Of a stretch of DNA of 64,000 nt, positions 44,471 through 64,000 are shown piece by piece. The stretch's first letter is position 1; every line of letters starts with the position of its first letter. Below the pieces are notes generated by a model, which was not told the origin of the DNA, did no database searches, and was given only the letters and a program-made list of their open reading frames with translations. The position numbers and the translations under genes are program-made. This DNA is from Methanococcus aeolicus Nankai-3 (GTDB lineage Archaea > AGJL01 > Methanococci > Methanococcales > Methanococcaceae): NCBI RefSeq assembly GCF_000017185.1, contig NC_009635.1, positions 436,563-500,562 on the forward strand. The letters are read 5' to 3'.

Positions 44471-44540
44471 TATACAACAATGAATAATTAATAACTAATT
44501 TATATTTATCTATAATTTATATTAATTTACGGTGATTTTT

Positions 44541-45830: not shown

Positions 45831-45906
45831 TGTATAGAAAATTATATATAAAGAATTGTATGTTAGTTTATTTAATTTATTTAATGGCGCATATCAAGGT
45901 GATAAT

Positions 45907-47118
45907 TTGGCAAATATAGTAGTTAAAAAATTAAATTCAACACCAATTGAGGAGCTCCCTGTGGAAATTGTGGAGAGAAAAGGAATTGGGCATCCAGATA
46001 GTATTTGCGATGGAATAGCTGAGGCAGTTAGTGTTGCACTTTGTAAAATGTATAAAGAAAAAATGGGGGCAGTATTGCACCACAACACAGACCAGGTTGA
46101 ACTTGTTGGAGGATATGCTTACCCTTCATTAGGTGGCGGAGACATCGTAAATCCTATTTATGTATTATTATCTGGTAGGGCAACAACAGAAGTATTTGAT
46201 AAAGAAAAATGCGAAACAATAAGACTTCCAGTTGGAACTGTTGCCGTAAATGCTGCAAGAGAATATATTAAAAATACAATCATAAATTTAGATGTAGAAA
46301 AAGATATTGTAGTGGATTGTAGAATAGGACAAGGTTCCGTTGATTTAGTTGGTGTATTTGATAGGGAAAATTCAATACCGTTGGCAAACGATACCTCCTT
46401 TGGAGTGGGGCATGCACCATTTAGTACAACAGAAAACCTTGTTTTAAAAACTGAACAATTATTAAATAGTAAGGAAATTAAAAAAGAGATTCCAGCTATC
46501 GGTGAAGACATTAAAGTTATGGGATTGAGAGAAGGAAAAAAAATAACTTTAACAATTGCTATGGCTACTGTTGATAAATATGTTAATTCCGTCGAAGAAT
46601 ACGAGGAAATAAAAGCAAAAGCAAAAGCAAAAGTTGAGGAGCTTGCAAAAGAATACGCAGACGGCTATGAAATAGAAGTATTCGTAAATACAGCAGATAG
46701 TGATAACTGTATATTTTTAACAGTTAGTGGAACATCCGCAGAAATGGGAGACGATGGTTCAGTTGGAAGAGGAAATAGGGCAAACGGATTAATTACTCCA
46801 TTCAGACCTATGAGTATGGAGGCTACAAGCGGTAAAAATCCAATAAATCATATCGGAAAATTATACAATATATTGGCAAATATAATTGCAAATGATGTTG
46901 CAAAAATTGAAGGAGTAAATGAGTGCCATGTTAGAATATTGAGCCAAATAGGAAAACCAGTAAATGAACCTAAAATATTGGATATAGAATTAATAACTGA
47001 TGAAGGGTATGATGTGGCAGACATTGAGCCAAAAGCAAACGAAATAGCCGAATATTGGTTAAATAATATTGAAGAAGTAAGAGAAAAATTAATGACTGGA
47101 GAAATAAAAACATTCTAA
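45907..47118 (+). CDS. mat: Archaeal S-adenosylmethionine synthetase
   Basis: This is the archaeal-type MAT, distinct from bacterial MetK. Segments include [134 protein letters not shown] 45907 is preferred, as it follows GGTGATAAT and gives about 403 residues, the family's length; upstream codons are leader. Confidence 0.95.
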
Positions 47119-47285
47119 ATTAATTAATATATTTTTTATCTTTTATCTTTTTTATTTTTATTTTACTATTTTTTTATATAATAAATATTACTTAAATACT
47201 TAAAAAGAGCAATATTACTAGTATTTTAATGATTTTTTTACGACCTTTATTGTAATAATATTATACAATTGTCGAAGTTCCGAAA

Positions 47286-47351
47286 CATTTATATAATATG
47301 TGTAATTAATACACATATATAATGATAAATAATGATAAATAGGGTGAAAAT
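47286..47351 (+). promoter_or_regulatory. por operon promoter with palindromic operator
   Basis: A TATA box (TTTATATA, 47288-47295) is followed by TGTGTAATTAATACACA at 47299-47315, a perfect palindrome apart from its centre, then ACATATATAATGATAAATAAT leading to the GGGTGAAAATG start of porC. The operator sits where RNA polymerase would begin transcription. The same palindrome and flank appear ahead of cdhA. Confidence 0.6.
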
Positions 47352-47891
47352 GTGGATGAGATAAGACTTCATGGTAGGGGAGGTCAGGGGGCAGTTACAG
47401 CCGCCGAAATTCTTGCCATAGCTTCTTTAAAAGAGGGAAAATTTTGTCAAGCTTTTCCATTTTTTGGTCCTGAAAAAAGGGGAGCTCCTGTAACTTCATA
47501 TGTTAGAATAAGCGATAGCGAAATTAAAACAAGAACTCAAATATACAATCCAAATTATGTGATGGTTCTAGACCCAACAGTTATAAATGACCCTACTGTG
47601 GATGTTGTCCAAGGACTGGATGATGGAACCATAATTGTGAATACAAAGGAGCCTATCGAGTTTGAGGGCCAAAATACCTATACAATAGATGCCACCAAAC
47701 TTGCCATTGAAACTCTGGGGGTTCCAATTACAAATACCGTCATGATTGGAGCATTTTTGGCAATATATGATAATATCTCATTGGATTCAGTTATTTCAAT
47801 CATATCAGAAAGATTTCCGAAAAAACTTGCTGATAAAAATATATTGGCCGTTAAAAGGGCATATGATGAGATGAAAAAGGTGGTCGTATGA
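47352..47891 (+). CDS. porC: Pyruvate:ferredoxin oxidoreductase gamma subunit
   Basis: The gamma subunit shows IRLHGRGGQGAVTAAEILAIASLKEGKFCQAFPFFGPEKRGAPV, SYVRISD, and an ATKLAIETLGVPITNTVMIGAFLAI core typical of 2-oxoacid:ferredoxin oxidoreductase gamma subunits. The 179-residue size and the porC-D-A-B order fit the four-subunit archaeal enzyme that makes pyruvate from acetyl-CoA and CO2. It begins at GTG 47352 behind GGGTGAAAAT. It overlaps porD by four bases. Confidence 0.94.
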   Translation: MDEIRLHGRGGQGAVTAAEILAIASLKEGKFCQAFPFFGPEKRGAPVTSYVRISDSEIKTRTQIYNPNYVMVLDPTVINDPTVDVVQGLDDGTIIVNTKEPIEFEGQNTYTIDATKLAIETLGVPITNTVMIGAFLAIYDNISLDSVISIISERFPKKLADKNILAVKRAYDEMKKVVV

Positions 47892-48157
47892 CATTAGATT
47901 ATAATAATATAATCATAGGTGGTGTGCTTCCACCTGGAACAAGCGTAGAAAACAAAACTGGAGGTTGGAGGACCTATAAACCAATTATTGACTACGAAAA
48001 CTGTAATTCATGTCTTTTCTGCTGGCTCTACTGCCCCGATGGAGTGGTAATTGTTGAGGACGATAAAATAACAATTGACTACGATTTTTGCAAGGGATGT
48101 GGAATTTGCGAAGTTGAATGTCCAAAAAATGCTATAAAAATGATAGAGGAGGACTAA
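47888..48157 (+). CDS. porD: Pyruvate:ferredoxin oxidoreductase delta subunit (ferredoxin)
   Basis: The 89-residue protein has two [4Fe-4S] motifs, CNSCLFCWLYCPDG and CKGCGICEVECPKNAI, with an N-terminal GTSVENKTGGWRTYKP extension characteristic of Por delta subunits. It passes electrons from the catalytic subunits to ferredoxin. It overlaps porC by four bases and sits two bases ahead of porA. Confidence 0.95.
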   Translation: MTLDYNNIIIGGVLPPGTSVENKTGGWRTYKPIIDYENCNSCLFCWLYCPDGVVIVEDDKITIDYDFCKGCGICEVECPKNAIKMIEED

Positions 48158-48158
48158 A

Positions 48159-49310
48159 ATGCAAGGAATGACCGGACATATGGCAGTTGCCACTGCGGTG
48201 AAAAATTCAAGTGTCGATGTGGTGGCAGCATATCCAATTACTCCCCAAAGTGAAATTGTTGAGATAATAGCAAAATTTATTGCCGACGGTGAGATGGATT
48301 GCGAGTATATTCCAGTAGAATCCGAACACAGTGCATTGAGTGCAGTAATTGGGGCTAGTGCCTGCGGTGTTAGAACGTTTACCGCATCTTGCGGACCTGG
48401 TGTAGCATTATTTCACGAGCTCATCCCATGTGCTTCGGGGCTTAGGTTGCCCATTGTTACGGCAATTACAAACAGGTCTTATTCTGCTCCAATATCAATA
48501 TGGTCAGACCATATTGATGCCTTAGCTCAAAGAGACAGTGGGGCAATTCAGATGTTTTGTGAAAGTAATCAGGAGGCCCACGATTCTACAATAATGGCAT
48601 ACAAAATATGCGAAAATAAAAATGTGTTATTGCCTGCAATGGTATCTCTTGATGGATTTATATTGTCCCATACTGTTGAACCCGTAAATCCATTAGATAA
48701 TGAAACAATTAAAAGTTTTCTCCCAGAATTAGATTTAGAATATAGGTTAGACTCTGAAAATCCTTACACAATAGGACCAGTTGGGGGCCCAAATATATAC
48801 ATGGAATTAAAATACCAACAGGAAAAGGCCATGAATAATGCCATGGGCACTATAAGAAAAACATTTAAAGAATTTGAAGAGATTACTGGAAGGAAATATG
48901 ATTTAATTGAAGAATATCGAACAGAAGATGCAGAAACTGTTATTTTAACGATTGGGGCAATAACTACCACTGCACGATTAATTGTGGATGAGCTAAGAAA
49001 AGAGGGGGAAAAAGTGGGGTTGATTAAATTAAAAGTATTTAGGCCATTTCCAAAAGAGGAATTGAAAAAAATACTTTCAAGGTTTGAAAAAATAGGGGTA
49101 ATTGATAAAAATATAGGCTTTGGTTCGGGTGGAATTGTGGCCCATGAAGTTAAATCCTGCCTTTATGATTTAGATAATAAACCAATCATAAAAAACTTTA
49201 TTGTTGGACTTGGCGGTAGAGATGTAACTTATGACAATTTTAGAACCATATTTAAGTTATTAGGGGACAATAATTCAAAAGAAATTACTTGGGTGGGTGT
49301 TAATCTATGA
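48159..49310 (+). CDS. porA: Pyruvate:ferredoxin oxidoreductase alpha subunit
   Basis: The alpha subunit segments are [111 protein letters not shown] and the C-terminal [12 protein letters not shown] region. Length of 383 residues is normal for archaeal porA. It overlaps porB by four bases. Confidence 0.95.
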
Positions 49311-50200
49311 AAATCACAGATATTCCAAAAGAAGAATATTTAGCACCAGGAGCAAGAGCCTGTGCTGGATGCCCAGAACTTCTTGCTTTAAGGTTGGCTT
49401 TAAAAATATGTGGAGAAGACACAATTGTTGTTGCACCTACTGGATGTATGGAAGTTATTACTACAATATATCCTGAAACTGCCTGGCGAGTGCCATTTAT
49501 ACATGTTGCATTTGAAAATGCCGCTGCTGTTGCAAGTGGCATAGAAAATGCCATGAAAAGAAAGGGTAAAAAGACAAATATTGTAGTATTTGCAGGAGAT
49601 GGAGCTACCGCAGATATTGGTTTTCAATCATTATCGGGAGCCATAGAGCGAGAGCATAATATATTATACATATGCACAGATAATGAGGCATATGCAAATA
49701 CTGGAAAACAGAGAAGTGGAACCACACCTTATGGGGCATCAACAACTACCAGTCCTGCTGGAAAATACAGTATTGGAAAGCCAGAAGAAAAAAAGAATAT
49801 GCCTTTTATCGTGGCTGCCCATGGAGCTCCCTATATTGCTACTGCATCAATAGGCTACCCATTTGACTTTCTAAAAAAAGTGAAAAAGGCATTATCAATT
49901 AAGGGATTTAAATATCTCCATGTCCATGCCCCATGCCCTACTGGATGGGGATTTCATAGTAAAGATGGAATAAAAATTGCAAAATTAGCTGTTCAATCTG
50001 GATTATGGACACTTTATGAAATTGAAAATAAAAAATTTAAGATGAACTATAAAAACAAAAAAATACCTGTGAAGGATTATTTAAATATTCAGAAAAGATT
50101 TAAACACCTTTCAGACATTGAAATTGAGCATATACAGAAAAGAACAGATACTAGCTGGGAGGAATTGTTAGAACACAACAATAAAAAAATCTTAATTTAA
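49307..50200 (+). CDS. porB: Pyruvate:ferredoxin oxidoreductase beta subunit (TPP-binding)
   Basis: The beta subunit shows the cysteine-containing [25 protein letters not shown], the TPP-binding [47 protein letters not shown] and the [10 protein letters not shown] segment near the end. Length of 297 residues is normal. It completes the porCDAB operon; the next gene downstream is carA, so the porE and porF ferredoxin genes known after porB in related methanococci are not seen here. Confidence 0.95.
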
Positions 50201-50342
50201 TTATTTCTTATTTATTTAAATATCCAATATTTTGGAAAATTATTTATTATTTACTACTAATTTTTAAGCTCAATACATTTACTCAGGTATTAGTCAATAA
50301 TGACCATACACGGCACAATATAATATATAATAAAGGGATAGT

Positions 50343-51416
50343 ATGACGAAAGCCAAATTAATTTTAGAAGATGGAACTGTTATGCAGGGCAAAGGATTTG
50401 GTGCAGAAGGAGTTGCAGTTGGAGAAATCATATTTTGCACAGGTATGACTGGATATGTGGAGGCATTAACCGACCCATCATATAAAGGTCAGATATTAAC
50501 CATGACCTACCCGTTAATTGGAAACTATGGCGTAAATGAAGAATGGTTTGAATCTGATGGAATAAAAGTAGGCGGTTTTGTCGTAAAAGAGAACTGTTTA
50601 ACTCCCAGCCATCATAAATCTAAAAAAAATCTTGATGAATTTTTAAAAGAATATGATGTCTGCGGAATATCCGACCTTGACACAAGAAAATTAACAAAAA
50701 AAATAAGGACTTATGGAGCCATGAAAGCAGTTATTGCAGTTGGAGATATCGAAATAGATAATGAAGAATTATTAAAAAAAGTTAAATTGCACAAAAATAT
50801 TTCAGAATTAAATTTAGTCTCCGATGTATGCGTAAAAAATCCAATAATATTGGGAGGAGGTAAAAAGACTGTGGTTTTAATCGACTGTGGAGTTAAAAAA
50901 TCCATAGTAAATCAGCTAATTGATAAAAATATAAATTTGGTCATTGTCCCATACAATACAAGTTATAAAGATATATTGGAATATAATCCAAATGGAGTGT
51001 TTATTTCAAATGGGCCCGGAGACCCTGCTGTCCTAAAAGAAACAATAAACACCGTGAAAAACCTTATCGGCAAAGTTCCAATATATGGAATATGTTTGGG
51101 GCATCAAATAATATCACTGGCACTTGGTGCTAAAACGAGAAAATTAAAATTTGGTCATCATGGATTAAACCAGCCTATTAAGGATTTGGAAAATGGAAGG
51201 GTATATATCACTTCCCAAAATCACAACTTTGCAGTTTCTGATTTGCCCGATTGTATGGACATTACACAGATTAATTTAAACGATAACAGCATTGAGGGAA
51301 TAAAACATAAGGAACTACCAATTGTCGGAGTTCAATATCACCCGGAAGCCAAACCTGGTCCTCATGATACATACGGATTCTTTGACGATTTTAATAAGAT
51401 TATTAAACAATATTAA
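50343..51416 (+). CDS. carA: Carbamoyl-phosphate synthase small subunit
   Basis: CarA is the glutaminase that supplies ammonia to CarB. The N-terminal domain reads AKLILEDGTVMQGKGFGAEGVAVGEIIFCTGMTGYVEALTDPSYKGQILTMTYPLIGNYG, followed by a GATase1 domain with NGPGDPAVL, the nucleophile cysteine in YGICLGHQIISLALG, and VQYHPEAKPGPHDTYGFF. The 357-residue length is standard. It is followed 63 bases later by carB. Confidence 0.96.
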   Translation: MTKAKLILEDGTVMQGKGFGAEGVAVGEIIFCTGMTGYVEALTDPSYKGQILTMTYPLIGNYGVNEEWFESDGIKVGGFVVKENCLTPSHHKSKKNLDEFLKEYDVCGISDLDTRKLTKKIRTYGAMKAVIAVGDIEIDNEELLKKVKLHKNISELNLVSDVCVKNPIILGGGKKTVVLIDCGVKKSIVNQLIDKNINLVIVPYNTSYKDILEYNPNGVFISNGPGDPAVLKETINTVKNLIGKVPIYGICLGHQIISLALGAKTRKLKFGHHGLNQPIKDLENGRVYITSQNHNFAVSDLPDCMDITQINLNDNSIEGIKHKELPIVGVQYHPEAKPGPHDTYGFFDDFNKIIKQY

Positions 51417-51478
51417 TATATGTTAATATATAATATTAACTTACATTATTAATTTATATTATATAATTTGGTGGTTTT

Positions 51479-54400
51479 ATGCCAAAAAGAGAAGATATTA
51501 AAAAAATAATGATAATAGGTGCTGGCCCAATAATTGTGGGGCAGGCATGTGAATTTGATTATTCTGGTTCTCAGGCATGTAAAGCTTTAAAGGAACTGGG
51601 ATATGAAATAGTTCTTGTAAATTCTAACCCTGCAACAATTATGACTGACCCCGAGATGGCAGATGAAATATATATAGAACCTTTGGTGCCCGAGGTCGTT
51701 GAAAAAATTATTGAGAAGGAACAGCCCGACGCAATACTACCTACCCTTGGAGGACAGACTGCACTAAACTTGGCAGTTGAATTGGCCGATAAAGGAATTC
51801 TTGATAAATACGGCGTTGAATTAATTGGTGCAAAATTAGATGCTATTAGAAAGGCGGAGGATAGGGAGCTCTTTAAAGAAGCCTGTAAAAAAGTTGGAGT
51901 GGATGTGTTAAAAAGTGAAGTTGCATATACTGTGGAAGAATCCCTAAGTATTGCAGAAAAATTAGGCTACCCTGTGGTAGTTAGACCTGCATTTACCCTT
52001 GGGGGAACAGGAGGAGGTGTAGCATTTAATCCAGAGGAGTTAAAATCAATAGCTTCAAAGGGATTGGAATATAGCCTTAAAAATCAAATATTGATAGAAG
52101 AGAGCATAATTGGTTGGAAGGAATATGAATATGAAGTAATTAGGGATTTAAACGACAATGTAATTATAGTATGCACCATTGAAAATATTGATCCTATGGG
52201 GATACATACAGGAGATAGCATTACAGTAGCTCCAACTCAAACACTTAGTGATGAAGAATATCAATTATTAAGAGACTATTCCATAAAAATCATTAGAGAA
52301 ATTGGGGTTGAGACCGGCGGAAGTAATATTCAATTTGCAGTTAATCCAGAAAATGGGAGAATTGTGGCAATTGAAATGAACCCAAGAGTAAGCAGGAGCT
52401 CCGCACTTGCAAGTAAGGCAACAGGTTATCCAATTGCTAAGGTTGCCGCAAAATTGGCTGTTGGTTTAACTCTTGATGAAATTAAAAACGAAATAACAGG
52501 AACTTCCGCAGCATTTGAACCCACAATAGATTATGTGGTTGTAAAGATTCCAAGATGGGATTTTGATAAATTTTCTGGTGTTGATAATACCTTAACAACC
52601 CAGATGAAAAGTGTTGGGGAAGTTATGGCTATGGGTAGAACTTTTGAAGAATCATTTTTAAAGGCATTGAGAAGTTTAGACCATTATAATATACAATATC
52701 AATTTGATGGAAAAAGATTAAATTATACAAATCCAAAAGGCGGACTAAATAGAATATATGATTTATTTGAGATTTTGAAAATAAAAGAGATAGATGAAGT
52801 TTATAAAATAACTAAAATAGACCCTTGGTTTCTGAATAAGATTAAAAATATAATGGAGCTCCGGAGCTCCATAAAAAGTAATACAAATCTTGACTATGAA
52901 ACACTTTTAAAATTAAAAAAATATGGAATATCTGATAAAATAATAGCCGATATTTCGGGAAAATCGGAGAAAGAGATAAGAAATCTAAGAAAAAAATACA
53001 ATATAATTCCAAAATACAAAATGGTAGATACCTGCGGTGCAGAATTTGAGGCAAAAACACCATATTACTATTCAACATATAATGACGAGGAGGACGAAAT
53101 AAAGGAAATAAAGGAAATAAAGGATATTGGCAGTGCAAATAGTAAGAAAAAAATTATAGTATTGGGTTCGGGACCCAATAGAATAGGTCAGGGCATAGAA
53201 TTTGATTATTGTTGTGTCCATACAATAAAATCCCTAAAAGAGGAGGGTTTTGAAACAATAATGGTAAATTGCAACCCCGAAACAGTTAGCACCGATTTTG
53301 ATTTGGCAGACAAACTTTACTTTGAACCACTATATCCCGAGGATGTTTTAAATATAATTGAAAAAGAAAATCCTTACGGCGTTGTAATTCAAGTTGGGGG
53401 ACAAACTCCTCTTAATCTATCGAAATACATTTCTGACAATATGATTGTTGGAACTCCAAAAGAATCCATTGATTTAGTAGAAGATAGAGAGAAATTCTCA
53501 AATATATTGAATGAATTAAAAATACTACAACCGCCAAATGGAATAGTATTTGATGAAAAAACAGCCGTAGAAGTGGCTGAAAAAATTGGATATCCTGTAT
53601 TGGTTAGACCTTCCTATGTGATTGGTGGAAGGGCTATGCATATAGTATATAATAATGAGGAATTAAAAAAGTATATGAAAGAGGCAGTTATGGTTTCACC
53701 GGAGCTCCCAATTTTAATTGATAAGTTTTTGGAAGATGCTATTGAAGTAGATGTAGATGCCATTTGCGATGGTGAAGATGTATTTATCGGCGGAATAATG
53801 GAACACATAGAAGAGGCAGGAATACATAGTGGAGATAGTGCCTGTGTGATACCCACACAAACATTATCCAATGAAACATTAAATATTATAAAAGATTACA
53901 CAAAAAAATTATCATTAAAATTAAAAATTAAAGGTTTGATAAATATACAGTATGCCATAAAAGATAATACAGTGTATGTTTTGGAGGCAAATCCAAGGGC
54001 TAGTAGAACAATACCTTATTTAAGTAAAGCTATTGGCATATCTCTTGCAAAGATTGCAGCAAAAATCATGGTTGGAAGAAAATTAAAAGATTTAAATGTT
54101 GTGGAAAAAATACCCGATAAAGTATGCGTCAAGGAGGCTGTATTTTCATACGGCAAATGGCCAAATGCAGAGATTTCCCTATGTCCTGAAATGAAATCCA
54201 CAGGAGAAGTTATGGGCATAGATAAGGATTTTGGACTGGCATATTATAAAGCCCAACTGGCTGCTGGTATGGAGCTCCCAATGAATGGAACTGTATTTAT
54301 AAGTGTAAATGATGATGATAAAAACAAAATAATACCAATAGCAAGAAAGTTTGAAAATTTAGGATTTAAAATAGTGGCAACAGAAGGAACCCATAATATA

Positions 54401-54664
54401 TTAACCAATAACGGAATAGCAGTGGAAAAAGTATTCAAAATAAGCGAAGGGAGACCAAATATAATAGATTTAATAAAATCTAGAAAGATAGATTTAATTA
54501 TAAATACTCCAAAGGGAAGTGCATCAAAAGAAGACGAATATCTAATAAAAAGAACTGCAATAGATTATAAAATACCATACATTACCACAACCAATGGGGC
54601 AAAGGCCACATATAATGCCATTGAAAATATGGGCAATATGGATATTGAAGTGTATAGCATATAG
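51479..54664 (+). CDS. carB: Carbamoyl-phosphate synthase large subunit, undivided
   Basis: The 1061-residue protein has two homologous ATP-grasp halves: [30 protein letters not shown] (first) and [30 protein letters not shown] (second), each with a [23 protein letters not shown] or [16 protein letters not shown] core, and a C-terminal allosteric MGS-like domain from about residue 930. In some methanococcales carB is split in two, here it is one gene. The linker after the oligomerisation domain (around residue 460) includes a double GGAGCTCC palindrome at 52853-52872 that is translated as MELRSSIKS. Confidence 0.96.
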
Positions 54665-54712
54665 AATAATATAAACAAAAAAAGAAATAAACAAAAAAGA
54701 AAGGTGTTAATA

Positions 54713-55441
54713 ATGGAAATAAATATTAACGAAATCTTAAAAAATGAACCATTATACAGTGGAAAGGCAAAATCAATATATGAAATAGACGATGAAAAAG
54801 TATTAATTGAATTTAGGGACGATATTACCGCAGGAGATGGAGAAAAGCACGATATAAAAAAAGGAAAAGGTCATTTAAATGCTTTAATATCTTCAAAATT
54901 ATTCGAACTTTTGGAAGAAAATGGGGTCCCCACACAGTTTATGGAATATGTTGAACCAATATATATGGTTGCTAAAAATGTGGAAATTATATTAATTGAA
55001 GTAATTGTAAGAAATATTACAGCAGGTAGTTTATGTAGAAGATACCCATTTGAAGAAGGTAAAGAATTGACCACTCCTATTGTGCAATTTGACTATAAAG
55101 ACGACGACTATGGGGACCCCATGTTAAACGAGGATATAGCCATTGCACTAAATCTTGCAACTGAGGAGGAGTTAAAAGAGTTAAAAGAGTTGGCACTAAT
55201 AGTAAATGAAATTCTAAAAAAATTCTTTGACGAAAAGGGCATAATCCTTGTAGATTTCAAAATCGAGATTGGAAGAACAAAAGATGGAAAATTGGTAGTT
55301 GCAGACGAGATAAGCCCGGACACCATGAGATTATGGGATAAAGAAACAAAAGATGTTCTTGATAAAGATGTATATAGAAAAGACATGGGCGATGTTGTTG
55401 GAAAATACGAAGTTGTAGCAAAAAGAATAGGATGCATTTAA
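54713..55441 (+). CDS. purC: SAICAR synthetase
   Basis: PurC ligates aspartate to CAIR in purine synthesis. Motifs are YSGKAKSIYEID, IEFRDDITAGDGEKHDIKKGKGHLNALISSKLFELLE, VRNITAGSLCRRYPFEEG, VDFKIEIGRTKDGKLVVADEISPDTMRLWD and the end YRKDMGDVVGKYEVVAKRIG. At 242 residues it is a normal bacterial/archaeal PurC. ATG 54713 follows AAAGGTGTTAATA. Confidence 0.96.
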   Translation: MEININEILKNEPLYSGKAKSIYEIDDEKVLIEFRDDITAGDGEKHDIKKGKGHLNALISSKLFELLEENGVPTQFMEYVEPIYMVAKNVEIILIEVIVRNITAGSLCRRYPFEEGKELTTPIVQFDYKDDDYGDPMLNEDIAIALNLATEEELKELKELALIVNEILKKFFDEKGIILVDFKIEIGRTKDGKLVVADEISPDTMRLWDKETKDVLDKDVYRKDMGDVVGKYEVVAKRIGCI

Positions 55442-55582
55442 ATTAATTAAATTAATTATATTATTATTTTTTTATATCTAAAAAGATGGCTTTATTTTTA
55501 AATTGAATGAAAATAGTGTAATATAAAATAGTGTAAGATATTATTGACTCAAAATATATATAATTTTTAACCTATTTTGCAG

Positions 55583-55663
55583 GAAGTCCCCGTCCGTAAG
55601 GGTTGAATAAAAATCCCATGGGATTTTTATAGCTCAAACCTATGGTTTGACAGGATAATTCAC
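55583..55663 (+). ncRNA. Stand-alone TnpB-type scaffold repeat
   Basis: GAAGTCCCCGTCCGTAAGGG is followed by two hairpins, AAAAATCC-CAT-GGGATTTTT-like and TCAAACC-TAT-GGTTTGA, and then AGGATAATTCAC. The architecture equals that of the copy at 43029 although the hairpin sequences differ, and the ends equal the TnpB right end. No transposase gene is near. It is a solo end or a structured RNA; both are inferences. Confidence 0.5.
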
Positions 55664-55714
55664 CATTGCTAATAGGTTTTAGTGCACAATATTAAAAATT
55701 AGGGTAATATTTAT

Positions 55715-55760
55715 ATATTAGGTGTAGCATATACACATGTGTAGTTATTACACATTAAGA
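55715..55760 (+). promoter_or_regulatory. Promoter of the carbonic anhydrase gene with two abutting operators
   Basis: After an AT-rich TATA region near 55710 come GGTGTAGCATATACACA (55721-55737) and TGTGTAGTTATTACACA (55738-55754), two TGTGTA-N5-TACACA-type palindromes exactly end to end, then the GAGGTGAT ribosome site. Confidence 0.6.
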
Positions 55761-55769
55761 GGTGATATA

Positions 55770-56558
55770 TTGAATAAAAAGATTGGAGTATTGGGCATGT
55801 TCTGTGTGGCACTAACATTGCTATTTGCAGGATGTGTCGACAATCAAACAGTTGATGAATCTACCACAGACGAATTGAAATCAGAAATATCCAAATTAAA
55901 TGGAGAAATAAACAAATTGAAATCATCTCCAAATATGGTGCCAAATATAAGGAAAAATTTAGAAGGACATTATCCTTCAATAAGTAAAACAGGCACCTAC
56001 ATTGACCCTAACGCAGTAGTTATTGGAAATGTAAAAATCGGAGATGATGTATATGTTGGACCTCATGCACTTATAAGATGTGATGAAATTCCAACAGAAG
56101 GAATTATAATTGGCAATAAAGTAAATATTCAAGATGGCGTTATTATACATGCCCTAAGAGGAACAAAAATAGAAATTGAAGATGAGGCTTCACTTGCCCA
56201 TGGATGTATAGTGCATGGACCTGCTAAAATAGATAAAAATGCATTTATCGCATTTGGTGCAGTTGTATTTGCTGCGGAAATAGGACAAGGTGCATTAATC
56301 GGACACAACGCAGTTGTAGATGGAATTGGAGTAGAAGGAGGATTGAAAATACCTGCTGGAAAATTGGTTCCATCTGGGACTGTTGTAATGAAAGATATAG
56401 ACGGACAAGTAAAAGCATTTTTGCCTGATGGCACAGTATTGACAGATTTAAACGATTTACCTGAGGTAGTGGATTGGTATAAAGCCGTCCCTAAAAAAGT
56501 AGTGGATGTAAATATTGAGTTGGCAGAAGGATATTTAAACATGCAGGATTTATATTAA
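55770..56558 (+). CDS. Gamma-class carbonic anhydrase, putative lipoprotein
   Basis: The protein has a lipoprotein signal (NKKIGVLGMFCVALTLLFAGC, lipobox LFAGC at about residue 21), a short coiled region EIKSEISKLNGEINKL, then a left-handed beta-helix with zinc-site histidines in VGPHALIRC, VIIHALRG, EASLAHGCIVHGP and VFAAE/IGHNAVV, as in Cam. It hydrates CO2 outside the membrane. TTG 55770 follows GGTGAT and gives this N-terminus. Tandem operators precede the gene. Bicarbonate/CO2 supply fits neighbours that fix CO2. Confidence 0.87.
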   Translation: MNKKIGVLGMFCVALTLLFAGCVDNQTVDESTTDELKSEISKLNGEINKLKSSPNMVPNIRKNLEGHYPSISKTGTYIDPNAVVIGNVKIGDDVYVGPHALIRCDEIPTEGIIIGNKVNIQDGVIIHALRGTKIEIEDEASLAHGCIVHGPAKIDKNAFIAFGAVVFAAEIGQGALIGHNAVVDGIGVEGGLKIPAGKLVPSGTVVMKDIDGQVKAFLPDGTVLTDLNDLPEVVDWYKAVPKKVVDVNIELAEGYLNMQDLY

Positions 56559-56671
56559 TAAAGATATAAAAATAAATAAAATATTAATTTTCTATTTTTT
56601 TATTGAAATATATTATGGGAGCTCCCATTAAATAATATATGCTAGAAGACGACAATAATGAAAACTTTTAA

Positions 56672-56920
56672 AATATCATAGCAAAAAAATGCTTAAAATG
56701 TATATTTAAATTAGAAGATTTTTCGAGAGAATATACAGAAAAAACAATACATTTAAATTATTTATGGTTATTTTTTATTTGTAAAACCATATTTACAAGG
56801 ACTTCAAATGCAAAAGTTTTTTTAGGTTTGACCGAAAAGGGACATTTAGGACTTGGTGCTGATGCCGATATTGCAATATATAAAACACCTGGAACAATGA
56901 AAAGAGAAAAGAGAAAATAA
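56672..56920 (+). pseudogene. Relic of the C-terminus of formylmethanofuran dehydrogenase subunit A
   Basis: The open stretch ends in TRTSNAKVFLGLTEKGHLG then LGADADIAIY, which resembles the FwdA/FmdA ending (a TRTxPAKxLGL...KGHLGVGADADIAIY pattern), and then KTPGTMKREKRK and a stop. Upstream residues (FSREYTEK) are a weaker match and no start, ribosome site or metal site is present. It is a lone C-terminal fragment, probably left by loss or shuffling of a gene copy. Confidence 0.7.
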
Positions 56921-56947
56921 AACAATTATAAGTTTTATGCTTCCAGA

Positions 56948-57670
56948 TTAATAAAACATTTCTCCACTTATAAATTTTTTTGTTAATTCATGCTTTGGAT
57001 TAGAAAATATTTTTTTAGTAGTTCCAACTTCGATAATTTTTCCATCATACATATGGGCGGTGCTATCCGATAATCTTTTAACTTGGAATAGGTTATGTGT
57101 TGCTAAAACAATTGTGGTATTATATTTTTTAACGGTGTCTTTTATTATATTTTCGATTAATATGGAATTACTGGGGTCTAAGTTTGCCGTGGGTTCATCC
57201 ATCAATAAAACTTCTGGTTCAATGACTAATGCCCTTGCCAGTGCCACCCGTTGCTTTTCCCCTCCTGAAAGTGATTTTGCTATTCTATCTTTATAATTAG
57301 ATAAACCAATATGTTCAAGAATATCTTCTACCTTTTTTTTAATATATTCCTTGGGATATTTTCTAATTTTAAGCCCATATGCTATGTTATTATAGACCGT
57401 TGAATTAAACATGACTGGATTTTGAAACACCAGTGTAATTTTTCTTCTAAAATCGATATCCCATTTAACTTCTTTACCTCCTATAAAATATGTTCCATAA
57501 TCGGGTTTATTAATAAGTGCCAATATTTTAAGTAAAGTAGTTTTTCCTGCACCACTATGCCCCATAATGCAGAAGATTTCTCCTTTTTTAATGTTGAACT
57601 CAATATTATTTAGAACTTTTCTTCCACCATGCAATTTTGTGATATTCTTTAACTCCATATAATCTTTCAT
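56948..57670 (-). CDS. tupC: Tungstate ABC transporter ATP-binding protein
   Basis: The ATPase has Walker A MGHSGAGKTTLLKILAL, Q-loop LVFQNPVMFNS, signature SLSGGEKQRVALARAL, Walker B EVLLMDEPTANLD and H-loop LATHNL, in 241 residues. It ends the three-gene tup operon, with ATG 57670 overlapping the permease stop. It energises import of tungstate (or molybdate). Confidence 0.92.
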   Translation of the reverse strand: MKDYMELKNITKLHGGRKVLNNIEFNIKKGEIFCIMGHSGAGKTTLLKILALINKPDYGTYFIGGKEVKWDIDFRRKITLVFQNPVMFNSTVYNNIAYGLKIRKYPKEYIKKKVEDILEHIGLSNYKDRIAKSLSGGEKQRVALARALVIEPEVLLMDEPTANLDPSNSILIENIIKDTVKKYNTTIVLATHNLFQVKRLSDSTAHMYDGKIIEVGTTKKIFSNPKHELTKKFISGEMFY

Positions 57671-58374
57671 TAATACCACTTTCTTCTTATTAAATTGGAT
57701 ATCAAATTAACAATAATAATTATACTCATTAAAATTATTCCAAGAGCTATTGCAGTGCTAATATCTGCCCTAACTGTGTGCATCTGTATTGCCGTTGTTA
57801 GAATTCTTGTGTTGTAATGTCCCCCATTTACATATATATTTCCACCTATCATTAAAGCTATACCTAATTCAGATATTGCCCTGTTGAATCCTGTGATGGT
57901 GGCCAATATAATCCACCCCCAGATTTCTTTAATAATTTGAATAGTAGTTTGAATCTCACTTGCACCAAGGGTCATGCATAACTCCTTAATGTCCCCTTCA
58001 ACAGACTCAAAGGAATCAATAATTATACTCATAACTATTGGAGTAATAAGAAGAGCTTGCCCCGCAATTATTCCACTTTCAAAATATAGCAAATCGAGAA
58101 AGCCCAATGGCCCCTTCGGCACAAAAAAAAGATAGAGCATAAGTCCCCATATCACAGTAGGAATTCCCATAAATGAATTTATAAAATTTTTTATAAAAAA
58201 TCTTCCTTTAAATTTCTTAAACGCTATAAAAATAGAAATGGGCAATGACCACAATAAAGATAATATTGTGGCACTTCCCGAGATTTTTATGGATCTCCAT
58301 GCTATTTCCAAAACATAACCGTCCTGTATAAGCACTAATGCGTCCATAAATCCATTTATTAAATATTCAAACAT
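57670..58374 (-). CDS. tupB: Tungstate ABC transporter permease
   Basis: The 234-residue protein has five or six helices and the EAA-type coupling loop ELCMTLGASEIQTTIQIIKEIWGWIILATITGFNRAISELG. It fits the single-permease architecture of TupABC. It lies 20 bases after the binding-protein gene and overlaps tupC. Substrate is taken from the binding protein. Confidence 0.92.
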   Translation of the reverse strand: MFEYLINGFMDALVLIQDGYVLEIAWRSIKISGSATILSLLWSLPISIFIAFKKFKGRFFIKNFINSFMGIPTVIWGLMLYLFFVPKGPLGFLDLLYFESGIIAGQALLITPIVMSIIIDSFESVEGDIKELCMTLGASEIQTTIQIIKEIWGWIILATITGFNRAISELGIALMIGGNIYVNGGHYNTRILTTAIQMHTVRADISTAIALGIILMSIIIIVNLISNLIRRKWY

Positions 58375-58393
58375 TACATTACACCTTAATATG

Positions 58394-59473
58394 TTAGCCC
58401 GTTATTTCAGTTGAGTCAAATTCAAAGAAATTCCAATTTGTGTCGTATCTGAATTTTGTCGGACATTCTGTGTATTTGCTACCGTCTTTCATAAATCCAT
58501 ACTTTACAATCCACTGGTATATTGGTGCTTCTTTGTTGGTGAGAATTGGAACAGCTGGACTAAATAATGATACTCCAAATTCCTCTTTACCATAATTTCC
58601 GATAAAATCTTGTCCTTCATCAGATACAAGCCATTCTGCTAATTTTGAAGATTCTTTAAAGTCTTTACCGTCTATTTGTTTTGGATTTATTAATATTATG
58701 GCATAAACATTTGTTAATTCTTCCCCTTTATCGACCAATTTTTCAAGGTTTATTAATCCTTCTTTCTGGTATTTTAAATAGGTTCCTGTATCACTAAGAG
58801 TATAGCCCCTCACATTCTCCGAGGTAGTATATTTTAATGTGTCGCCCATGCCTTGACCCGTACTTCTCATCCATCCTTCTTTTTTAAGTTCTTCGTAGTC
58901 ATAACCTGCGGCGGCCCATAAATTAATCTCTTTTTTGTTGGTTCCTGAGTTGTCATCTCTTGTAACCCATACAGTATTTCCTGCCCTTCCCGCTTCAACT
59001 ATTTTTTGTAGTGCCTTTTGAGGTTCTAATCCTTTTATGCTCGCAGGGTCATTGTCTGGACCCACAATTATAAAGAAATTGTATGCAAATACCTTTCTAT
59101 TTACTCCATATCCTTCATTCATGAATTTTTCTTCGGAACCTACTGCATGAACAATTATAGCATCAGATGCTCCACTTTTAGCATCCAATATTGCCCCACC
59201 CGTTCCTTTTGGAATGAATCTAACTTCTGTATTATATTTTTCTTTAAATTTTTCAGAAATTGCTTCTGCCAATCCTGTGGCATAAACACTTGTAGTAATA
59301 GATAATGTTAATACTTTTGGCTTTTCTGTTTTTATGTTGGTATTGCTATCCGTATTGGTATCGGTATTTACTATGCTGGATTCGGTTGTATCCGCAGGTG
59401 TGCCTGAATCCACACATCCTGCCATCATACCTACCAGTAATAATGGTATTAGATATATAACAAGCTTTTTCAT
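58394..59473 (-). CDS. tupA: Tungstate-binding lipoprotein
   Basis: The signal peptide ends in a lipobox (VGMMAGC at about residue 20), then a S/T/D-rich linker, then a periplasmic-type binding fold with LSITTSVYATGLAEAISEKFKEKY, RFIPKGTGGAILDAKSGASDAIIVHA, the FIIVGPDNDPA and VWVTRDDNSGTNKKE segments. The TTSxxxxGL and RxDxSGT signatures point to TupA (tungstate) rather than sulfate binding. Its promoter holds a TGTGTA-TAT-TACACA palindrome (59494-59508). Confidence 0.9.
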   Translation of the reverse strand: MKKLVIYLIPLLLVGMMAGCVDSGTPADTTESSIVNTDTNTDSNTNIKTEKPKVLTLSITTSVYATGLAEAISEKFKEKYNTEVRFIPKGTGGAILDAKSGASDAIIVHAVGSEEKFMNEGYGVNRKVFAYNFFIIVGPDNDPASIKGLEPQKALQKIVEAGRAGNTVWVTRDDNSGTNKKEINLWAAAGYDYEELKKEGWMRSTGQGMGDTLKYTTSENVRGYTLSDTGTYLKYQKEGLINLEKLVDKGEELTNVYAIILINPKQIDGKDFKESSKLAEWLVSDEGQDFIGNYGKEEFGVSLFSPAVPILTNKEAPIYQWIVKYGFMKDGSKYTECPTKFRYDTNWNFFEFDSTEITG

Positions 59474-59493
59474 AATTTCTCCCTATTTATATT

Positions 59494-59508
59494 TGTGTAT
59501 ATTACACA
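59494..59508 (-). promoter_or_regulatory. Palindromic operator ahead of tupABC
   Basis: TGTGTATATTACACA is the TGTGTA...TACACA palindrome with a three-base centre instead of five. It lies about 20 bases before the tupA ATG. A half-site (ATATGTGTATACTATATATA) follows upstream. It resembles the operators of por, cdh and the carbonic anhydrase. Confidence 0.5.
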
Positions 59509-59576
59509 CTACAAAAAGTTATATGTGTATACTATATATAATTTTTGTTAATTATATTAAATTACTACAAATTTAG

Positions 59577-59914
59577 GGTTTCAATAATATAAATATATAT
59601 CGGAACATTATCTTCTGTTCCCTGCATTTATATAACATCATTTATAGAAATATCTAAACTAAAACCACACTAAATCCAAAGCAATAGCTCATATAATATT
59701 CCAATGTTTCATATTTGTGGATATATGTTACTATCAACCATTCACATTATTGGAGATATAATTTTTATAGGTCATATTTATCAGAAAATATTAGCTAATT
59801 ATATTCATTACTACTGTCTTATTATCACGATCATTATAATTTTAATTATTCGGCAACATATTTTTATACAATAAAAAGAGAGAGAGAAAAAATACAATGA
59901 ACAGGGAAATTTAT
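59577..59914. other. Gap without genes between tup operon and cdhB
   Basis: About 340 bases with high AT content. I see no ORF with a start and leader, no tRNA-like signature and no copy of the repeats described elsewhere. Confidence 0.6.
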
Positions 59915-60427
59915 TTATTCCATATATTCAACCAGCTTTGAAAGATATATTACCCAGCCATCATAAGACATATTTGGATAAGATAAATCAGCATTAGGGT
60001 GCATAAATTTGCACAGCGTAATGGTTTTTAAGTGAGGTGCAAAGTTTTTTAATGTAGAAAGACCTTGGGAGCCAATATAATAAGGCACACCTATAAAACA
60101 TATTAAATCATAATTTCCCTTACCGCAAAAACCATTCCAATTTGAATCTTTTAGATGATTTATTAACTCCACAGCCCCAATATTATAATGGGGTTTAAAA
60201 TTTAATTTCGAAAGCATAATGTTAGAACCGCCCGTTGATACAACAGTCATGTGTTTTAATTTTGCTATTTTTATTGCATATTCTGCTATCTCTTCGGGTA
60301 TCACATTTAATAAAGAACCCATGACAAACATGGGATTTTTAGACTGTTTTATTGTTAGTGCAGCTATTTTAGGGGAACAAATTATTGCCTGATTTGGGGA
60401 AGATAATGCAGGATTCCATGCAGACAT
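59915..60427 (-). CDS. cdhB: Acetyl-CoA decarbonylase/synthase epsilon subunit
   Basis: The 170-residue CdhB shows NPMFVMGSLLNVIPEEIAEYAIKIAKL, TGGSNIML, and the DLICFIGVPYYIGSQGLSTLKNFAPHLKTITLCKFMHPNADLSYPNM segment of the CO dehydrogenase epsilon (CooS-associated) family. It binds the alpha subunit. It is encoded divergently from cdhA, with its start only 84 bases from cdhA's, instead of following it in the same operon as in many methanogens. Confidence 0.9.
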   Translation of the reverse strand: MSAWNPALSSPNQAIICSPKIAALTIKQSKNPMFVMGSLLNVIPEEIAEYAIKIAKLKHMTVVSTGGSNIMLSKLNFKPHYNIGAVELINHLKDSNWNGFCGKGNYDLICFIGVPYYIGSQGLSTLKNFAPHLKTITLCKFMHPNADLSYPNMSYDGWVIYLSKLVEYME

Positions 60428-60439
60428 AATATCACCACA

Positions 60440-60510
60440 AGATTTATATATTGTGTGTATTAATTACACATATATAATGATTAATAATGATATTATATAA
60501 AGGTGAGGGT
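60440..60510. promoter_or_regulatory. Divergent cdhB/cdhA promoter with shared operator
   Basis: TTTATATA (60443-60450) faces right and ATTATATA on the other strand faces left, with TGTGTATTAATTACACA (60454-60470) between them. The palindrome is the exact reverse complement of the one ahead of porC, and the following bases TATATAATGATTAATAATGAT match the porC leader. Confidence 0.65.
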
Positions 60511-62817
60511 ATGTTTCGGGTTGACGGATATAAAAGCAAAAATGTTTCAATTAAAGGATTGAAAATGGATTTTAAAAAAATAAATTTAGATACTGAACAT
60601 ACAAACACAAATTATCCTCCTTCTAAAAATAAAAAAGTTAGTGTAGATTACTCAAAACTTAGGGAGTGGGATTTTAAGTTATTGTCTTATTTTAAACCAT
60701 TTTATGCTCCATTGTGTAATTTATGTTGTCTATGTACATATGGAAAATGTGATTTATCCAAAAATAAAAAAGGAGGATGCGGTATTAATTTAGAAAAACA
60801 ACAGGCAAGAATTGTATTATTGGCATGCTGTATTGGGGCATCTACTCATGCCGCCCATGCTAGACATATTGTTGACCACATATTGGAGGAAAATCCAAAT
60901 TTAAAAATAGATTATGGAAATGCCATAAATATAGTTGCACCTTTATCAACTACCATTACAGGCATCACTCCAAAAACTGCTGATGATTTAGATAAAATAT
61001 TGGTGTATGTTGAAAGGGAAATAACAAACTTACTGGCTGCCACCCATACAGGTCAAGAGGGTAGTTATTTAGATTTTGAATCAAAAGCTCTTCATGCGGG
61101 AATGATTGATAATTTAGCCTTGGAAATAGCAGAATTGGCACAAATAAATTATTATAATTTACATAAGGGTGAGCCCAATACTCCATTAATAGATATTGGA
61201 TTGGGAGTAATAGATGACCAAAAGCCAATAATATTGTGCATTGGACACAATATAGCACCAGGAGTAGAAATTATTGATTATATTGATGACATGGATTTAT
61301 CTGAGGATATAGAAGTATGTGGTTTGTGTTGCACTGCAATAGATATCAGTAGATACTCAAAGGAATCAAAAATAGTTGGTCCAATATCGAGGCAATTGAT
61401 GTTTATAAAATCGGGTATTCCAGATATAGTGGTTTTGGACGAACAATGTATAAGGGCAGATATATTAGAACTATGTGCTGAACAAAATATTCCCATAATT
61501 GCAACAAGCGACAAATGTTCATTGGGATTGATTGAAATGACATCCAAAGACGAAAATATTATTATTCATGAGCTATTATCAAATAAACATAAAGGTGCCC
61601 TTATAAAAGATATGGCGAAAGTTGGAAAGGTTGCCGTTGGTTTAGCCTTACTGTTAAAGAAAAACCAAAAACCCAAACAGGAACATAGAAACATAGATAT
61701 TTCTGAACTTATAAATGGATGCACAGAATGTGAATGGTGCAACAGGGTATGTCCTGCCATGCTCCCAATAAAAGAAGCTTTTGTACTGGGTAAAAACGGG
61801 GATTTATCCGGGTTTTCAGCCCTTTATGGTATGTGTGTAGGATGTGGAAAATGTATGGGGGAATGTGAGAGGGAGCTCCCAATAATAGATATTATAAGAA
61901 TAGCTTCAAAAGATAAAATAGCTTCCGAAAGATTTAAAATTAGAGCGGGGAGGGGACCAATTCAAGATATTGAAATAAGAAAAGTGGGAGCTCCCATTGT
62001 ATTGGGCGATATTCCTGGAGTTATTGTACTTGCAGGTTGTTCCAACTACCATAATGGAGAAAATGAAATAGCCCTTATTACAGAAGAATTTTTAAAAAGA
62101 GGGTATATTGTAGTGGCTGCGGGATGTGTGGCCATGGACATAGGACTTTATATGGATAAAGACGGAAAAACACTTTACGAAAAATTCTCTGGCGACTTTG
62201 ACAAAGGGGGACTTCTAAATGTAGGTCCATGCGTTGCAAATGCTCATGCCATCGGTAGTGCCATCAAAATAGCAAATATATTTGCAAAAATACCCCTTGA
62301 AAATAATTTTACAAATGTAGCAGACTATATATTAAACAGGGTCGGGGCATGCGTAATTGCATGGGGTGCCATGAGTCAGAAGGCAGTAGCAATTGCAACC
62401 GGCGCGAATAGGTGGGGCATACCTGCTGTGGTTGGGCCTCATTCATCCAAATACAGAAGATTGTATTTAGGAGAATCAGAATTAAGAGAAATTACCGATA
62501 AACGAACAAATGAAAAGGTGAAATGCGAACCCGCCCCGTTGCACTTAATATATTGTGCTGAAAGTATGAATGAATGTATGGCAATGGTGGCAAAATCTTG
62601 CATAAGGCCTAATGATACCCCAAAAGGAAGATTAATAAAATTAACTCATTATGTGGACATATATAAAAAATACTATGGGTGCCTACCAGATGATTTACAC
62701 TTATATATTAGAAATGAAAGGGAAATTCCTTATGAAGATAAAAAAGAAATATTAAAATTCCTTAAAGAAAAAGAATGGAATCCAAGAAATGCTCCAAATG
62801 AACCTTCCATATTGTAG
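60511..62817 (+). CDS. cdhA: Acetyl-CoA decarbonylase/synthase alpha subunit (CO dehydrogenase)
   Basis: The 768-residue CdhA is the Ni-Fe-S CO dehydrogenase catalytic subunit. It has the N-terminal cluster cysteines CNLCCLCTYGKCDLSKNKKGGCGI, HAAHARHIVDHIL, LCIGHNIAPGVEI, ICGLCC- and CIRADI-type C-cluster ligands, and two [4Fe-4S] motifs typical of the ACDS form: CTECEWCNRVCPAM and CVGCGKCMGECERELP. ATG 60511 follows GGTGAG. It makes CO from CO2 for acetyl-CoA synthesis. Other ACDS subunits are not in the window. Confidence 0.95.
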   Translation: MFRVDGYKSKNVSIKGLKMDFKKINLDTEHTNTNYPPSKNKKVSVDYSKLREWDFKLLSYFKPFYAPLCNLCCLCTYGKCDLSKNKKGGCGINLEKQQARIVLLACCIGASTHAAHARHIVDHILEENPNLKIDYGNAINIVAPLSTTITGITPKTADDLDKILVYVEREITNLLAATHTGQEGSYLDFESKALHAGMIDNLALEIAELAQINYYNLHKGEPNTPLIDIGLGVIDDQKPIILCIGHNIAPGVEIIDYIDDMDLSEDIEVCGLCCTAIDISRYSKESKIVGPISRQLMFIKSGIPDIVVLDEQCIRADILELCAEQNIPIIATSDKCSLGLIEMTSKDENIIIHELLSNKHKGALIKDMAKVGKVAVGLALLLKKNQKPKQEHRNIDISELINGCTECEWCNRVCPAMLPIKEAFVLGKNGDLSGFSALYGMCVGCGKCMGECERELPIIDIIRIASKDKIASERFKIRAGRGPIQDIEIRKVGAPIVLGDIPGVIVLAGCSNYHNGENEIALITEEFLKRGYIVVAAGCVAMDIGLYMDKDGKTLYEKFSGDFDKGGLLNVGPCVANAHAIGSAIKIANIFAKIPLENNFTNVADYILNRVGACVIAWGAMSQKAVAIATGANRWGIPAVVGPHSSKYRRLYLGESELREITDKRTNEKVKCEPAPLHLIYCAESMNECMAMVAKSCIRPNDTPKGRLIKLTHYVDIYKKYYGCLPDDLHLYIRNEREIPYEDKKEILKFLKEKEWNPRNAPNEPSIL

Positions 62818-62830
62818 AGGGCGTGGCTAA

Positions 62831-63313
62831 TTAATCTAACTCTCCTCTATTATCCTTAATTATTTTTAAAAATATTGCATTTTTTTGGCATAATTCTTGA
62901 CATAACTCACATCCACAACATTTATTTTTATCAATATTGATTAGATCGTTTTCAATAGTTATTGCCTTTGTTGGACATATGTCAATACATATTTTACATA
63001 AATTACATTTACTGGAAATGGCTACATCAACATCAATATTATCAGAAATTAATGTTTCCGTAATTGTAGTTACAATGTCATTGTCATCACATACGGTTTT
63101 AATAAAAAGAACAGCATCTCGCGGATAAAATTTTTCGGCCGTGACTTTTGCACATTTAACAGCTTCTTTTGCAGGTATCCGTCCAGCCAAATAATGGGTA
63201 ATTACAGTCCTATCTACATTAAGTAATTTTGCAATCTCTTCATGTGTTAAACCTTTTTCCCGAAGTTTTTTTGCCGTGAGTGCCCTTAAACCTGCCAATA
63301 TATGTTGAGTCAT
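62831..63313 (-). CDS. HTH transcriptional regulator with two [4Fe-4S] ferredoxin motifs
   Basis: The 160-residue protein has an N-terminal helix-turn-helix (LREKGLTHEEIAKLLNVDRTVITHYLAGRIP, about residues 18-48), a linker, then KCNLCKICIDICPTKAI and KCCGCELCQELCQKNAI, two bacterial-ferredoxin-type 4Fe-4S motifs. This combination suggests a redox- or oxygen-sensing DNA-binding protein. It lies 13 bases after cdhA and converges with it. It is a candidate regulator for the palindrome shared by cdh, por, tup and the carbonic anhydrase, an inference from position and domain content. Confidence 0.85.
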   Translation of the reverse strand: MTQHILAGLRALTAKKLREKGLTHEEIAKLLNVDRTVITHYLAGRIPAKEAVKCAKVTAEKFYPRDAVLFIKTVCDDNDIVTTITETLISDNIDVDVAISSKCNLCKICIDICPTKAITIENDLINIDKNKCCGCELCQELCQKNAIFLKIIKDNRGELD

Positions 63314-63696
63314 AATATCACCATTAAATATTAAAATATAAATTTATTATGTAAATCGATGCTCTTGGCATAAATGACAATCCATTAAATGGATAATTAT
63401 GATATATGGGTCATTGAACATAGGTCATTTATTGTCGATTCACCAAACATACAAATATAGGCCATACGATATATGATAATATATATTATATATTTATCCT
63501 CCTTAAAAAATAAAAACTATTTAAAAATTTCATATATCCTACATTCAATTCTTTACGGCTTTGCTACCTTCTCTGGAATCTTTTTATATTATTCCATAAT
63601 ATCGGGAAGCCCATAAATCTGTCATAAGGTCCAACAAGAGGAATATTTTTATTATATTATTTGGTGGCATATATATTTTTGTTCAGATATTACCCT
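63314..63696. other. Gap without confirmed genes
   Basis: About 380 AT-rich bases. The only hint of coding is on the minus strand at 63564-63650, a 29-codon open stretch reading IPLVGPYDRFMGFPILW then a stop, with no start or family match I can name. No tRNA or repeat is seen. Confidence 0.5.
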
Positions 63697-64000
63697 TTAT
63701 TTGTGCCCTAATTCAAAACCTTTTTCTAGAGCTTTTAAGTTTAATTCTTTAAATTTTGGCGGCACGACATCAAATACGGCATTTTTTAAAGATTCTTTTG
63801 ATATCGTGTTTGTAATACTAACCAACGCCCCAAGCATTACAACATTGGCAACTATTTTATTTCCAATATCATAGGCCATTTGAGTGGCGGGAATTGGGTA
63901 TATATTTATATCTTTTCTGTTGGGAAAATTATTCATCATATCTGGGTCATAAATAAGGATTTTTCCAGACTTCAAATCTCTTATATATATGTCCAAAGAC
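63697..64000 (-). CDS. 2-oxoacid:ferredoxin oxidoreductase gamma subunit, C-terminal part
   Basis: The visible end of a gene that continues past the window edge. It reads GKILIYDPDMMN, PIPATQMAYDIGNKIVANVVMLGALVSITNTISKESLKNAVFDVVPPKFKELNLKALEKGFELG, the tail of KorC/VorC-type gamma subunits. The TISKE-L...V--VPPKF pattern suits the 2-oxoglutarate enzyme, but vor and kor cannot be separated with this fragment. Confidence 0.85.
   Translation of the reverse strand, partial: SLDIYIRDLKSGKILIYDPDMMNNFPNRKDINIYPIPATQMAYDIGNKIVANVVMLGALVSITNTISKESLKNAVFDVVPPKFKELNLKALEKGFELGHK

Follow-up and report, generated by a model that had tools for sequence, protein, structure and literature searches.

A HTH-ferredoxin protein as probable switch of a CO2/HCO3− enzyme island in Methanococcus aeolicus

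Which protein reads the palindromic TGTGTA operators that precede several carbon-fixation genes of Methanococcus aeolicus Nankai-3? The question arises from a 64,000 nt stretch of its 1,569,500-base genome (G000), hereafter the window, in which a short protein combining a HTH with two 4Fe-4S motifs is encoded next to the CODH gene cdhA, and a preliminary description had put this protein forward as the regulator of the operator. We compared the locus across 61 genomes, 36 of which are from the host phylum, and the proposal is supported by both the co-occurrence of gene and operator and the footprinting of fwdH promoters in the Methanococcota and Methanobacteriota.

The HTH-ferredoxin protein and its gene

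The gene at 62831..63313 (− strand) encodes a proposed repressor of 160 aa, defined by its ORF, Pfam matches, invariant residues and an AlphaFold model, which consists of an XRE-type HTH_3 domain (residues 15–57), a helical linker and a complete 2[4Fe-4S] ferredoxin domain (about residues 93–154). The HTH_3 domain was matched by Pfam with E 7e-6 (26.4 bits, cut-off 23), and Fer4 was matched twice (E 2e-10). Family alignments showed eight invariant cysteines (C103, C106, C109, C113, C132, C135, C138 and C142), with R35, H40, Y41 and G44 of the HTH being equally invariant. Five AlphaFold models were produced, and in the best of these, the only confident one (pLDDT 91.6), helices 24–31 and 35–43 form the HTH. 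The first cysteine motif has the spacing CxxCxxCxxxC, as found in Methanobacteriota, and is shorter in the FwdH proteins of Methanococcota; the clusters are predicted to be redox-active. There was no match to the FNR, IscR or WhiB families among the Pfam or listed NCBIfam hits, and a PDB search gave no HTH-ferredoxin fusion among solved structures, with a good match for the ferredoxin half only. Among the solved Fwd chains, the profile of the protein matched FwdF and FwdG only.

The fusion of a short HTH to two complete 4Fe-4S motifs and the position abutting cdhA, both previously described, agree with the ORF coordinates, the strand and Pfam, but this cdhA has to be reassigned to a second CODH, as another cdhA with 53% identity is present in the host genome. 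The stops of cdhA (62817) and of the HTH-ferredoxin gene (62831) lie tail to tail on opposite strands with 13 bases between them, which places the HTH-ferredoxin gene outside the cdhA operon. Also in line with the earlier reading, no operator above chance was found upstream of the gene at either locus searched (L001 and L002), with a best score of 10/12 (shuffle p 0.40). The gene is located downstream of the operator-bearing korDABC operon on the same strand, with the 3′ part of korC, the end of that operon, at 63697..64000 (−) in the window, and thus may possibly come under read-through control from kor.

The CO2/HCO3− enzyme island and its operators

The gene is part of an island at window positions 44000–64000 (481–504 kb of the genome), with a sister island at 1350–1389 kb in a genome of another genus (G012), and most of the island enzymes have only the use of CO2 or bicarbonate in common. 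A second, CO2-using pyruvate:ferredoxin oxidoreductase is encoded by porGDAB (47352..50200, +; native Por elsewhere at 60%), with carA and carB (HCO3−-using carbamoyl-phosphate synthase) and purC closely spaced behind it (50343..55441, +; native CarB 59–60%). These are followed by a gamma-carbonic anhydrase gene (55770..56558, +), for which a TTG near 55770 is the likelier start, since the listed ATG (55737) falls inside an operator, and by a tungstate-type ABC transporter (56948..59473, −) consisting of tupA (58394–59473), a permease and an ATPase. Second copies of cdhB (CODH epsilon subunit, TIGR00315; 59915..60427, −) and cdhA (alpha subunit, TIGR00314; 60487..62817, +) diverge from one common operator; this second CODH comprises only these two genes, no ACS genes adjoin it, and its closest other relative is found in G025 (65%). 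As both genomes also contain native relatives of Por, CODH and CarB (53–62% identity), the island represents a second set. PurC and the tungstate transporter are exceptions, which may serve a neighbouring CO2 step (PurE and the W-type Fwd).

Three perfect copies of the palindrome TGTGTA-N5-TACACA are present in the window (47299, 55738 and 60454), where an order-1 model predicts 0.002, and five is the only recurring spacer in the 55–60 kb around both islands. The por operon is preceded by TGTGTAATTAATACACA (47299..47315, +), which is identical to the 17-mer before fwdH in L167, while the gamma-carbonic anhydrase gene is preceded by a tandem pair that is also present in G012, the first with one mismatch (55721..55737, +) and the second perfect (TGTGTAGTTATTACACA, 55738..55754, +). 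The third perfect operator (TGTGTATTAATTACACA, 60454..60470) is common to the divergent cdhB and cdhA genes, has a TATA box on each side, and is conserved in G012. A degenerate operator with a spacer of 3 (TGTGTATATTACACA, 59494..59508, −) precedes tupA, where G012 has an N5 operator with one mismatch, and the operator of korDABC is located outside the window at genome position 503162. In the host, exact or one-mismatch operators are present in front of por (closely followed by carA, carB and purC), the gamma-carbonic anhydrase gene, cdhB/cdhA and kor. The operators of the sister island precede por, carbonic anhydrase, cdhB/cdhA, kor, tup, purE and the PEP carboxylase gene ppcA, as well as two fwd segments and a FwdF-like polyferredoxin, and this island also contains LarB, TsaC and a second carbonic anhydrase. 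The targets given earlier, CODH and Por, are indeed both fronted by an operator, but the regulon is broader and consists of a set of CO2/HCO3− enzymes.

A TATA-like element begins 6–17 bp before the operator in 15/17 island promoters, the exceptions being the remnant of purE, with a weaker TATA-like sequence, and tup, with a TATA about 30 bp upstream. Given this distance the operator probably spans about −17 to +1, and its earlier placement as centred on the transcription start holds only approximately.

Several observations were made outside these promoters. Just outside the window, at G000:C1:503346-503487 (window 66784-66925), a perfect operator precedes a short ORF (MNMAKKAVDIFKNL...) that is similar to a portion of PurE, and this looks like a decayed purE still with its promoter. 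Within the sister island (G012:C1:1363675-1365479), two adjacent ORFs, one of which is 118 aa, have the same fwdB-like N-terminal start and lie beside tandem operators, an apparent partial duplication. An exact operator is also located 303 bp upstream of the distant pycB-pycA (pyruvate carboxylase) genes of the host, in a region where Rfam and tRNA scans gave two tRNAs only. Since pycB is native (83% identical to that of G011) and the close relatives compared are without the pyc operator, pycB-pycA is a plausible rather than a firm target. Further one-mismatch operators elsewhere were rejected as chance-like, as five of the six inspected were within ORFs, and the sixth was intergenic with no CO2 enzyme adjoining.

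The HTH-ferredoxin paralogue is present in only 2/61 genomes, G000 and G012, which have six and eight exact operators, respectively, versus zero or one in the other 59. The association of the gene with the TGTGTA palindrome suggested in the preliminary description was thus recovered, with paralogue and operator set held by the same two genomes, and an operator set lacking the gene was absent among the 61. Island proteins are 86–100% identical between G000 and G012 (89% for the HTH-ferredoxin protein), while the other orthologues compared mostly share 59–70% (80% for native pycB), which makes it most likely that the island moved horizontally between lineages, and the HTH-ferredoxin gene along with it. 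One common transfer history, as opposed to two independent events, makes the co-occurrence weaker as statistics, but their joint transfer does show regulator and operators as a unit. The HTH-ferredoxin protein is apparently the only XRE protein that G000 and G012 have in common and that G011 and G003 lack, and no other DNA-binding family was matched among the remaining proteins of the shared block. Far from the island, a protein of 378 aa and the one encoded beside it seem almost identical in the two genomes (G000:C1:556559-557695 and G012:C1:1482627-1483763), apparently another recently shared piece.

FwdH relatives in two archaeal phyla

The relatives of the HTH-ferredoxin protein are single-copy, and at all 58 loci checked their genes open an fwd (formylmethanofuran dehydrogenase) operon and have fwdF as neighbour, whereas the window protein adjoins cdhA and kor and is not first in an fwd operon. 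In the tree, which is unrooted and hence does not give the sister group of the window lineage among the two FwdH groups, the FwdH proteins of Methanococcota (support 98/96) and Methanobacteriota (support 99/97) make up two lineages, and the window protein groups with its counterpart from G012 in a third. An origin as recent duplicate of the resident FwdH was rejected (AU p 0.004). The third lineage in the tree and the position beside cdhA/kor instead of fwdF together identify the window protein as a paralogue lineage and not FwdH itself.

The promoters of the relatives in both phyla contain a 17-bp palindrome with the same N5 spacer as the island operators, often at two sites. Methanothermococcus-like genomes have TGTTAGN5CTAACA at fwdH, about once per genome and in most as the sole exact copy, and for the TGTGAGN5CACACA variant of Methanocaldococcus-like genomes, 18 of the 19 matches in 61 genomes were at fwdH loci (10 in promoters, 8 inside the gene). 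The intragenic copies were found in eight Methanocaldococcus-like genomes (for example G023:C1:684012, G025:C1:1016830, G026:C1:377198 and G030:C1:692868), lie where the first cysteine motif is encoded, and may represent either coding constraint or a third site. Methanobacteriota fwdH promoters have TGTGTA-type sites near −105 and at −27 to −29, with exact TGTGTAN5TACACA at 11/30 loci, one of which is identical to the por operator of the window. The upstream site scored at least 11/12 in 19/29 Methanobacteriota promoters, compared to 0.23% in the order-1 null. As the scoring consensus was partly drawn from Methanococcota promoters, scores for this phylum are optimistic, while the exact-pattern genome counts are independent of the consensus.

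Site pairs with a distance of 77–78 bp are found in fwdH promoters of both phyla (for example L005, L011, L020, L054 and L071), and the resident fwdH copy of the host (genome 653626–654072) has its sites, TGTGTGCTACTCTCACA and TGTGTATATTACTAACC, 77 bp apart. Of the two sites, one directly precedes the TATA box and the other falls in the leader. This geometry is unlike that of the island promoters, and such spacing on either side of the TATA region points to possible looping or control from two sites. The idea that FwdH has a wider regulon in other Methanococcota was rejected, as exact palindrome variants are almost only found at fwdH. The presence of the palindrome at the family's own promoter across two phyla makes the HTH-ferredoxin family its natural reader, and recognition of the operator by the HTH-ferredoxin protein or its family can be proposed with considerable confidence. 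With the same palindrome in front of the genes of its relatives in two archaeal phyla, the HTH-ferredoxin protein is very probably the switch of the mobile CO2/HCO3− island.

Regulatory model, alternatives and known systems

We propose a model in which the HTH-ferredoxin protein acts as one-component XRE-HTH/2[4Fe-4S] repressor at the operator promoters of the island, and we consider this model probable as a whole. The protein belongs to the FwdH family, whose usual member is encoded at the start of the fwd operon of hydrogenotrophic methanogens. A dimer, as suggested by the symmetry of the operator and by the footprinting, would bind TGTGTA-N5-TACACA directly downstream of the TATA boxes and block initiation, thus repressing the second set of the island (por-carAB-purC, cam, tup, cdhA/cdhB and kor), and in the sister island also purE, ppcA and the fwd genes. 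Protein bound at the operator would hinder the assembly or start of transcription, making repression the simplest and a decidedly probable reading, and the TATA-proximal position also agrees with the dimeric repressor envisaged in the preliminary description. The usual role of the family would probably be to keep fwd, and with it the first step of CO2 reduction, under feedback control via the two sites 77–78 bp apart. Several points count against the model: the HTH-ferredoxin gene, in contrast to those of its relatives, is not preceded by an operator; the arrangement of sites around TATA differs in fwdH promoters; the resident FwdH might read the island operators as well; and 303 bp separate the pyc site from its gene.

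The domain content and the logic of the regulon point, tentatively, to ferredoxin redox state at CO2 shortage as the signal. In a methanogen with CO2 as electron acceptor, ferredoxin should build up in its reduced form once CO2 runs short; with ferredoxin unable to unload its electrons, the clusters would stay reduced and the repressor would release the DNA, allowing expression of the island. With similar reserve, the system could be read as an inorganic-carbon-shortage regulon, in which a mobile island with second copies of CO2/HCO3− enzymes of unrelated pathways (Por, Kor, CODH, carbamoyl-phosphate synthase, PurE, PEP carboxylase, LarB, TsaC, Fwd and carbonic anhydrases) is mostly under one HTH-ferredoxin repressor sensing CO2 shortage via ferredoxin redox, itself from a family in charge of the entry into methanogenesis in two phyla.

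Alternatively, the HTH-ferredoxin protein may regulate the operator in response to tungstate/molybdate status, CO, iron-sulfur status or oxidative stress, which is possible but rather doubtful: the regulon includes a tungstate transporter, no ACS genes lie beside the window CODH, and Fe-S regulators often sense O2 or iron, but the same island contains enzymes independent of W, CO and Fe-S, with CO2/HCO3− as the common feature. These independent enzymes are the carbonic anhydrases, PEP carboxylase, PurE and carbamoyl-phosphate synthase, none of which is known to use tungsten or CO or to be an Fe-S enzyme. It is unlikely that the TGTGTA operators are read mainly by the resident FwdH, with the window protein as its partner, antagonist or redundant copy. 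The two proteins do belong to one family, and the native fwdH promoter has the related sites TGTGTGCTACTCTCACA and TGTGTATATTACTAACC, one of which includes a TGTGTA half; however, FwdH is present in all Methanococcota, while TGTGTA operator sets are found only alongside the window paralogue, which travelled with the island and is of a lineage distinct from FwdH (AU p 0.004). Reading of the operator by an unrelated regulator encoded elsewhere (such as a winged-helix or ribbon-helix-helix protein common to G000 and G012 only), with the HTH-ferredoxin protein acting otherwise, is more improbable still: although the genome-wide comparison covered XRE-type proteins only, which leaves room for other DNA-binding families, the shared block is without a match to any of these, and the same palindrome is found at fwdH promoters of a different phylum that has the HTH-ferredoxin family. 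Finally, a role as electron carrier or assembly subunit for Fwd or CODH, with a HTH that no longer binds DNA, would fit the listing of FwdH with the formylmethanofuran dehydrogenase gene set (PMC3087415) and the fully conserved cysteines, but is very hard to reconcile with the invariant R35, H40, Y41 and G44, with promoter palindromes conserved over two phyla, and with profile matches to only FwdF and FwdG among solved Fwd chains.

Under the repressor model, the conserved but uncharacterised FwdH of the fwd operon would acquire a concrete function that can be tested, that of an autoregulator in two phyla, and a regulator-operator pair for CO2 fixation in methanogens would be named; the gene island itself is unusual in being organised by a common small molecule (CO2/HCO3−) and not by pathway. 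A literature search, mostly of papers available without subscription, found no published regulatory role for FwdH, no publication on a CO2-responsive regulator or CO2 regulon in methanogens, nothing relevant for the locus tags of the genes, and no description of the HTH-ferredoxin/operator system. FwdH has been named only within the tungsten formylmethanofuran dehydrogenase gene set, with Tfx as the known DNA-binding protein of the fmd operon (PMC3087415).

Tfx of Methanothermobacter is a HTH protein encoded beside a formylmethanofuran dehydrogenase operon (fmd) and linked to its control, but it is repressed by tungstate and binds downstream of the fmd promoter (PMC3087415), and there was no Tfx match among the Pfam hits of the window protein. 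FwdH, encoded by the first gene of Methanothermobacter fwdHFGDACB and with orthologues across the Methanobacteriota and Methanococcota, has the same HTH and 2[4Fe-4S] layout (30–43% identity) and the same N5 palindrome, with identical TGTGTAN5TACACA in several Methanobacteriota. It differs in being encoded beside fwdF with the palindrome at its own promoter, usually as sole exact genome copy where tested, whereas the window protein lacks such a site in front of its own gene, would control many promoters and belongs to a third lineage. The lambda-repressor-like XRE/HTH_3 repressors share the HTH_3 domain and a short palindrome with half-sites about one helical turn apart, but the window protein has a 2[4Fe-4S] ferredoxin instead of the usual dimerisation or ligand domain. 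With FNR, IscR/NsrR (Rrf2) and WhiB, from which it differs in fold and cysteine motifs, the window protein may share the principle that the state of a cluster changes DNA binding.
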